A stretch of DNA of 64,000 nt from contig NC_021284.1 in assembly GCF_000400955.1 (NCBI RefSeq), forward strand, positions 620,001 through 684,000, written 5' to 3'. The DNA comes from Spiroplasma syrphidicola EA-1. GTDB lineage: Bacteria; Bacillota_I; Bacilli_A; Mycoplasmatales; Mycoplasmataceae. Positions 33,988 to 36,213 of this stretch are shown in pieces (position 1 is the stretch's first letter; the number at the start of each line of letters is the position of its first letter). Made by a program: the position numbers and the translations under genes. The notes under the pieces are model-generated. The model was given only the letters and a program-made list of their open reading frames with translations. It ran no database searches and was not told the origin of the DNA.

Positions 33988-34932
33988 TTATTTTTGACTC
34001 AAATAATTACTTTCCTTTAAATCCGTAATTATTTTTTGACAAACTGTTTCAAAATTAGCATAGGAAAATTGATATCAATTAACATCACTTAATTGATGTT
34101 TAAATCATGTAATTTGTTTTTTAGCATAAATTTTATTGGCCTTGACCATTGCCATAATTGCTTCTTGCTCGCTAATTTCCCCTTTTAAAAAACTAACAAT
34201 TTCTCGACATCCAATAATATGCATACTTTGATATGCTAAAGACTGATGACATTGTTGATAAGCTTCGGCAACTTCAGCAAATAATCCCCGTGCTGTCAAA
34301 GCTAATACCCGTTCGGCAATCCGATGATGTAATTCATCTTTATCGGGTAACAGTCCGATAATATAAGGTTTAATATATCAAGTATTTTGATCACGATCAT
34401 TGGTTGATTTTGGAATTTGATTTTGCTCATAATATTCTAAAGCGCGCAGAATTCGTTTGCGGTTATTATAATGGATTTTTTCACTTTCGGCTTTATCAAC
34501 AACTGCTAGTTTTTCTCACAATTCTTGATTAGAATAATCATCATATTTTGCCAAATTAGCGAAGTTACGACCTTGCGAAGAAAACTGATAATTTTTTAAA
34601 AGAGCATTAATATATAAACCACTGCCCCCAACAACAATTGGCAATTTATGATCAGCCACGATTTCATTAATTGTTGCTCGTCCGGCTTTTTGAAAATCAC
34701 TAATTGAATAACTAGCTGTTAAATCCAAAAAGGAAAGAAAATGATGTTTAATTCCTTGCTGTTCCTCAAGCGTAATTTTATTAGTTGCAATATCTAAACC
34801 ATTAAACATTTGCGTAGCATCGGCATTTAGACACTCTCCATTAAAGGTTTGGGCTAATTTAATTGACAAATCAGTCTTGCCACTAGCGGTTGGGCCAATA
34901 ATTAAAACTACTTTAATTTCCTTCATTTTCAT
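33988..34932 (-). CDS. miaA: tRNA dimethylallyltransferase
   Basis: Adds a dimethylallyl group to N6 of A37 in tRNAs reading U-starting codons. The 314 residues include the P-loop GPTASGKTDLS (about 13-23), the DATQMFNGLDIATNK segment, VVGGSGLYINALL and a tRNA-binding C-terminal half with HRIAERVLAL and QSMHIIGCREIVSFLKGE. Two in-frame ATGs (34932, 34926) compete; AAAGGAG lies 4 and 10 bases before them, so the second may be used. A structured RNA with a terminator lies just upstream. Confidence 0.94.
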
Positions 34933-34984: not shown

Positions 34985-35014
34985 GAAAAAGACTAAGTAA
35001 AACTTAGTCTTTTA
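34985..35014 (-). terminator. Intrinsic terminator 53 bases before miaA
   Basis: Stem AAAGACTAAG/CTTAGTCTTT (34988-35012) with a 5-base loop and T runs on both strands. On the minus strand it ends the structured RNA before miaA. Confidence 0.88.
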
Positions 35015-35145
35015 TTTTATCTTTAAAATAACCCTGAACCGCTTTAAGTGCTTGGGTGTAGAGTTATTGATTTATATAGCGGTTAATAACCCCAAACACA
35101 CCTTAACGTTATAACAAACGTAGAAAACTGTCCTTACGGACAGTT
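34985..35145 (-). ncRNA. Putative structured RNA with pseudoknot, ahead of miaA
   Basis: Unknown class. On the minus strand, 5' to 3': an 8-bp hairpin with GTAA tetraloop (35145-35126); a 5-bp hairpin (35121-35106); a two-part stem GGTGT/ACACC (35102-35098 with 35059-35055) and GGGTTATT/AATAACTC (35092-35085 with 35068-35061); a 16-base loop whose AACCGC (35084-35079) can pair with GCGGTT at 35042-35037, making a pseudoknot; then a 10-bp terminator hairpin with T run (35012-34988). No ORF fits this stretch. It may be a free RNA or a terminator-controlled leader of miaA. It lacks the known sequence marks of SRP RNA and tmRNA. Confidence 0.5.
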
Positions 35146-35178
35146 ATATTTTAACATATTTTTTGTTAATTGCTTATA

Positions 35179-36213
35179 TTAGAAAAATAATTCTTTTGGT
35201 AAAACAATTTTACCAATAATATAATTATGTAAATTTCCATAAGAATCAGCAATTACTAATTTAACGCCTAATTCTTCATCTAATGGTAAGATTGGTAAAT
35301 TTTCAAAAACATTATCATTACTACTAATAACGGGTTTACCTTGAACAAAATGCTTTGTTCATTTTTTTGGATCTCATGTTGTAAATGTAATTGAAACATT
35401 TGTAATACTTTCATCAACATTTGTTCCCTTATCTCGCCCTCATAAACTTAGCAAATTAGTATAATATTCAAAATCAACGTTATTAATAAAGTTATTAATA
35501 ATTGTAAAGTAGGAAATTCCTTGGTCATACTCTCCATCTGGTGAATAGTTACTATCTAACGGATTTAATGACCAATCACGAGGACTATCTTTTTTATATC
35601 AATCCTGATATTCATAACGTAATTTATCAACAAACAGTCATTTTGGCTGATTTGCTTCAGTACTATTGCTATTATAATTTGGGAAATAATAATAAGCTAA
35701 ATCGTTTAAATCTTGAACTAAAGTATTTTTTTCTTGATCGGTTCAACCTGGCTTATCTTTGTCTTTTCCACCTGGATTATATTTTTCAACCACCGTTTTT
35801 CATGGTGAATTAACGATATCTTTTGTTGTTAGTAAGTGTTGCCCCATATATTTGAAACTATCTTTTGGCAAGGTAGGTTTTTGAGTACTATGACGTAATG
35901 TTGGTCCAGTTATTTCCGGAATATTTTTTTTATCATTATTTTTAATTTTTGTTACTAAAAGATCTTTTTCTGGAACATAATTTGGCTTTAATCAAACATT
36001 TAAATCATAGTTAAATAACGTTGAGATTTTAGGTTCTTGCCCTTCCTGCCCTGGTTCAGAATTTAAAACAATACTATCAAGGGCTTTTTTTGCCTGATTT
36101 GAGATAGAATTATTTATAATATATGGATATTCATTAATATTACAACTAACAACAAGACTAGTTGTTGCATTAAAAACTGAAATTGTCGTAAACATCGTCA
36201 ATAATTTTTTCAT
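35179..36213 (-). CDS. Lipoprotein, unknown function
   Basis: A 344-residue secreted lipoprotein: signal peptide MKKLLTMFTTISVFNATTS with lipobox VVSC (Cys24). The mature part is rich in Asn, Asp, Lys, Trp and Tyr, with PGGKDKDKPGWTDQEKN and YYYFPNYNSNS segments, and has no membrane helix. No family is recognised. The frame is continuous with UGA Trp codons. It has a good promoter 46 bases upstream of the ATG and is alone in its transcription unit; the stop lies 33 bases before the putative structured RNA. Confidence 0.75.

Follow-up and report, generated by a model that had tools for sequence, protein, structure and literature searches.

The window analysed here is a stretch of 64,000 nucleotides (contig NC_021284.1, positions 620,001 to 684,000) from the single 1,107,344-base chromosome of Spiroplasma syrphidicola EA-1, a mollicute that uses genetic code 4. 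Its minus strand carries miaA (33988-34932), which encodes a tRNA dimethylallyltransferase of the IPPT family and was recognised as an open reading frame (ORF) with a PF01715 match at an E-value of 1.5e-64 (G000:C1:654093-654812, which is window 34093-34812). A preliminary description made from the sequence had placed a structured RNA upstream of this gene, at 35145-34985 on the same strand. The RNA, about 120 nt long, is real, and the case for it is stronger than first claimed. It represents a new family and is probably a cis-regulatory leader of miaA, that is, a structured leader or riboswitch candidate and not a categorically new kind of element.

All parts of the RNA lie on the minus strand. 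An extended -10 promoter element, TGtTAAAAT (35148-35156), was identified from the sequence and the genus alignment; its last base and the TGTCC of P1 are 5 nt apart. P1 (35126-35145) is the hairpin AACTGTCC-GTAA-GGACAGTT with a GNRA loop and, by sequence and folding, the predicted 5′ end of the RNA. The hairpin P2, ACGTT-TGTTAT-AACGT (35106-35121), was found by folding and in the genus alignment. In the core that follows, comparative data support three helices. The 5′ strand of P3, GTGTTTGGG (35091-35099), pairs with CCCAAGCAC (35048-35056), the pseudoknot helix PK joins AACCGCT (35078-35084) to AGCGGTT (35037-35043), and P4 is formed by AATAACTCT (35060-35068) and AGGGTTATT (35027-35035), the latter followed by only a short T run. 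Between the 5′ strands of PK and P4 lies L2, ATATAAATC (35069-35077), a conserved single-stranded stretch of 9 nt with the family consensus nnATAAATn. A separate intrinsic terminator, AAAAGACTAAG..CTTAGTCTTTT (34987-35013), is specific to the window's genus and was found by terminator scan and in the genus alignment. It lies 53 nt before the miaA start codon ATG (34932), and the region holds two terminator-like sites compared with a shuffle mean of 0.1.

The GNRA-capped hairpin, the second hairpin and the terminator were thus each found where the preliminary description had put them. Its loop-to-3′ pairing, AACCGC with GCGGTT, is also present and lengthens to 7 bp. Its "two-part stem" fared differently: a pairing region does exist at that place, but the comparative data replace the proposed stem by the 9-bp P3 and the 9-bp P4. 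P4 and the extended -10 element were absent from that description and are added here.

The fold of the element was compared with 200 shuffled sequences, none of which folded as well (z = -4.58 with the terminator, -2.70 without it). The plain minimum-energy fold contains no pseudoknot, which emerges from the comparative data. P3, PK and P4 cross one another in the strand order P3a, PKa, P4a, P3b, PKb, P4b, and the linkers are tight: 9 nt between PKa and P4a, 3 nt between P4a and P3b, and 0-1 nt between PKb and P4b (2 nt if PK is limited to its five core pairs). P4 was 100% paired in 17 sequences, with six of its nine pairs altered on both sides, whereas slid controls paired 38-61% of cells over the whole structure. 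Among 30 distinct sequences in a curated set, five of eight P3 pairs had changed on both sides; pairing was used to pick the register of P3 in the window's genus, which biases this count towards P3, and P4 was aligned without structure. In the same set the PK core, CCGCT/AGCGG, was nearly invariant (fully so in copies linked to miaA), and L2 measured 9 nt in nearly all sequences, one having a 4-nt insertion. Covariation, which the preliminary description had proposed looking for in the pseudoknot and P2, was seen in P3 and P4 around a near-invariant PK core and L2, and in the sister genera P2 has another sequence (AAGAATA/TATTCTT) at the equivalent position. Some species have GTAA, GCAA, GAAA or GAGA as the P1 loop, others UUCG, UUAG or UUUG, and since the loop switches between these types a stable cap seems to be the property that is kept.

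The element was detected in all 14 genomes examined from the window's genus, with 88-98% identity for the best match in each. The genus alignment shows the -10 element, P1 and P2 retained along with a core of about 85 nt that is almost unchanged, and the flanks cannot be aligned across the genus. Identity of the RNA to most of the genus is 94-98%, compared with 61-65% for the MiaA protein and about 55% for third codon positions. miaA is the next gene in 13 of the 14 genomes. Three weak BLAST matches in genus g9 (L050, L051 and L058) have a different sequence and an equal architecture just before miaA, and the shared structure marks them as true homologues. The region upstream of miaA in other genomes of the family, which had been named for comparison, holds the element with its pairings conserved in every miaA-bearing genome except G012. 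Searched with a covariance model (R1, built from 17 sequences), 40 of 60 family genomes gave a match to the RNA, at E-values of about 1e-10 to 1e-18. PF01715 was present in 39 of the 60, and the RNA occurs in those 39 and in G019; in 38 of the 39 it immediately precedes miaA on that gene's strand, the exception again being G012. The upstream neighbour of the RNA varies between clades and the miaA side is constant. Within the 60 genomes R1 did not find the RNA in the family's other genera, which also lack miaA.

A class-wide covariance search in a sample of 395 Bacilli genomes gave nothing convincing beyond the family; the one marginal match, in G338 (E 8e-4), had an alignment without the PK core. 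Other weak BLAST matches beyond the genus were coding or chance. When 320 genomes were scanned with the exact core as a pattern, the hits in G085, G089, G144 and G310 (outside the family) and in G055 were likewise dismissed as chance or coding. In a pattern scan of named genomes only the hits in Spiroplasma poulsonii and S. phoeniceum were real, and viral contigs yielded none. The matches in G295 and the second match in G034 were ordinary terminators. The terminator end of the query (about positions 128-177) also gave weak matches at many places in G002 to G013, with tens of them in G013; these are probably AT-rich terminators or a repeat family.

In the covariance search each RNA-bearing genome yielded a single copy, with the exception of one nearby duplication. 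In G002 two copies of RNA and miaA lie about 11 kb apart (L015 and L009; G002:C1:651102 and 662308); in the 651-kb copy miaA is split into two frames, and the RNA is changed in P1, P2 and the P4-P3 junction.

The signals flanking the core differ between the sister genera and the window's genus. A -10-like hexamer with five or six matches precedes P1 in the 41 copies measured; it is a perfect TATAAT with a 5-nt gap to P1 in nearly all copies of the sister genera (GATAAT in G017, and judged by eye in G018). In these genera P4b runs straight into a long U-run, forming a terminator 22-87 nt before the miaA start codon, and in 17 of 25 copies the stretch from the core to miaA lacks a further -10-like site. 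From the TATAAT before P1 and the lack of a second site in these 17 copies, miaA is probably read through the P4 terminator in the sister genera, which would place the RNA in the 5′ leader of miaA under the same promoter, as expected of an attenuation leader. In the window's genus the core is instead followed by the separate terminator, and -10-like sites lie between this terminator and miaA (seen in the first four copies).

Copies no longer followed by miaA are few. In G012 the RNA precedes, by reading of the sequence, a thymidylate-synthase-like gene and one for dihydrofolate reductase, 47 kb from miaA; it is 89% identical to that of the window, compared with 94-95% for species at an equal miaA distance. 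In G019 miaA has been deleted: after the RNA come a ribosome-binding site and an ATG without miaA, and then a tRNA-Gly gene. G264 belongs to another family of the order and gave a good match on a 4.7-kb contig, on which a lipoprotein-like ORF follows the RNA and a neighbouring gene is one also found near the window's element. This contig (L126, C22) is probably stray Spiroplasma DNA, that is, an assembly contamination. Only in these three copies is the PK core changed (an A.A mismatch, an A.C mismatch and C-G to T-A). With three changed among 42 copies, the coincidence with the lost linkage is one in 11,480 arrangements, a figure uncorrected for relatedness.

On the miaA side of G012 we noticed a transposase remnant and a repeat of terminator sequence: the terminator AAATTGATGTTAGTTTTTTAATTTG (loci L081 and L012) occurs both after the RNA (153.7 kb) and before miaA (200.6 kb). 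The doubled terminator beside the transposase remnant reads as the footprint of the rearrangement that separated RNA and miaA.

Based on conservation, covariation, the anatomy of promoter and terminator and the linkage to miaA, all of them observed, we somewhat favour the view that the RNA is the 5′ leader of miaA in the Spiroplasma group and a new cis-regulatory family acting by transcription attenuation. The course of events may be depicted as follows. The promoter just upstream would start the RNA at P1, which would form a stable 5′ cap, and the nascent core would have two folds available: a compact sensor fold of P3 and PK, or a fold of P4 and its inner pairs that, with the U-run, would make an intrinsic terminator before miaA. 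Whether transcription terminates or reads through would then depend on an effector bound to the invariant core (PK CCGCT/AGCGG and nnATAAATn). The window's genus would have gained a second terminator and a promoter-like site for miaA, and the released RNA of about 150 nt may persist or act alone there. The switching, its direction and its effector (MiaA, tRNA, an isoprenoid or another metabolite) are the parts that we infer. Nearest-neighbour energies are compatible with two folds: P3 by itself contributes -5 to -13 kcal/mol, to which PK would add, in most sequences P4 and its inner pairs dominate the minimum-energy fold (about -12 to -20 kcal/mol), and the inner pairs reuse bases of P3b and PKb, giving alternative folds of comparable energy.

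Several observations weigh against attenuation. P4 itself shares no bases with P3 or PK; both P4 with the U-run and P3/PK are supported comparatively, and mutual exclusion arises only via the weaker inner pairs. In the window's genus the separate terminator and the -10-like sites before miaA mean that P4 need not control the gene, and it is precisely there that the RNA is most strictly conserved. G012 and G019 have retained the promoter, P3 and P4 with no miaA linked to the RNA, and P4 is partly broken in G264. Finally, an element confined to one gene in one bacterial family offers no comparative clue to a ligand.

The main rival is a free small RNA, acting in trans or binding a protein, which would have its own promoter and the P1 cap, terminate at P4 or at the later terminator, and neighbour miaA only by conserved synteny. 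We regard this as a possible but clearly less probable explanation, and the weight given to it is owed mainly to the stricter conservation in the window's genus, well above that of miaA, which attenuation alone leaves unexplained; in that genus the RNA may also be free, perhaps released constitutively. Every copy has a promoter and terminator of its own, a second terminator has been added in the window's genus, and copies were retained without linked miaA in all three cases described above. Synteny, however, does not readily account for miaA staying in place while the upstream neighbours vary between clades, for the failure to find the RNA in family genera without miaA, for the lack of a second promoter-like site in most sister-genus copies, or for a core altered exactly where the link to miaA was lost, which is itself a point for the leader. 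For the family as a whole a leader of miaA is better supported, as the gene stays immediately downstream in all genera that have both.

Two sub-versions of the leader name an effector. MiaA modifies anticodon loops with the motif Y-U-N-N-A-A-A, and a leader serving as a MiaA decoy or as a sensor of unmodified tRNA would make the gene autoregulatory. The occurrence of the RNA beside miaA in nearly all genomes, single but for the duplication, fits this, as does L2, which keeps A-U/C-A-A-A/G in all distinct sequences and in several species reads CUAUAAA, resembling the tRNA motif. The motif is kept only loosely, however, with A at position 33 (U in the tRNA) in part of g8 (CAAUAAA) and G at position 38 in G030. 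Nor does L2 form a hairpin loop closed by a 5-bp stem, and the likeness was noticed after the fact. We hold autoregulation to be unlikely. A riboswitch for an isoprenoid precursor, dimethylallyl diphosphate, isopentenyl diphosphate or 4-hydroxy-3-methylbut-2-enyl diphosphate, appears marginally less likely again. The isoprenoid pathway supplies the donor for MiaA, and IspH (PF02401), found in 38 of the 60 family genomes, is missing among the RNA-bearing ones only from G012 and G019, the family genomes with an altered and unlinked core. This is a lead and not evidence: only two lineages are involved, the RNA does not stand before pathway genes, and G012 keeps IspG and Dxr, so that either the methylerythritol phosphate pathway has lost its last step there or IspH is broken, or absent from the annotation or assembly.

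That nothing regulatory is present, the region being a chance fold and the terminator of the upstream gene, is highly improbable, and the comparative data refute it. Weak hairpins are common in such an AT-rich setting, but a near-invariant RNA in a genus with MiaA at about 62% identity, and covariation across genera, are not expected by chance. A short coding sequence was also rejected: in G006 a 1-nt insertion disrupts the 23-codon frame that is open in the genus, and the core shows no variation at any codon position. L2 is not a -10 box for miaA, the hexamer not being kept in part of genus g8, and the 6S, signal recognition particle, tmRNA and RNase P RNAs have the wrong architecture and gave no Rfam match.

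The upstream neighbour in the window is a lipoprotein-like ORF of 344 amino acids (35179-36213, minus strand) with a lipobox-like start, which ends at 35179. Relatives have versions of it at the equivalent site, and in G001 it is interrupted by a transposase-like fragment.

The preliminary description had recognised no known class and had left the choice between a riboswitch leader and a free small RNA; pairings kept with covariation in homologues support that reading, and the 4227 models of Rfam 15 gave no match at the curated gathering threshold over the window and only tRNA at nine loci of relatives. The best permissive match, the istR antitoxin RNA (RF01400), reached 23.7 bits against a gathering score of 45 and is unrelated in organism, gene context and core. 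No description of Spiroplasma riboswitches or small RNAs or of miaA leaders was found in the open literature searched, and to our knowledge no riboswitch or attenuator is known for miaA. The preQ1 classes, SAM-II and the fluoride riboswitches, which have H-type pseudoknot aptamers and terminator platforms, are alike in that their 5′ leader carries a compact pseudoknot whose core is invariant, with an intrinsic terminator beside it and a single gene downstream; they differ in helix order and downstream gene, and their Rfam models showed no sequence match. The strands of P3, PK and P4 run a b c a′ b′ c′, the ABCABC or "pseudotrefoil" topology, which is rare (51 of 1939 structures; PMC3390330). 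Coexistence of all three helices is here a candidate only, and the third would double as a terminator. A bolder proposal is a new class of RNA switch for miaA with three interleaved helices, perhaps sensing the isoprenoid donor or the N6-isopentenyladenosine (i6A) state of tRNA, which in the window's genus would have been freed by the new terminator and gene promoter and maintained by very strong selection as an independent RNA; we consider it rather doubtful.

The i6A37 modification occurs in tRNAs reading UNN codons, and the RNA would offer a handle on its control in minimal bacteria. Tests of ligand and structure can start from about 30 distinct sequences, in which the fold is clear and the core conserved. 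The difference between a leader in the sister genera and a separate RNA in the window's genus would provide a rare view of a cis-element turning into a free RNA.
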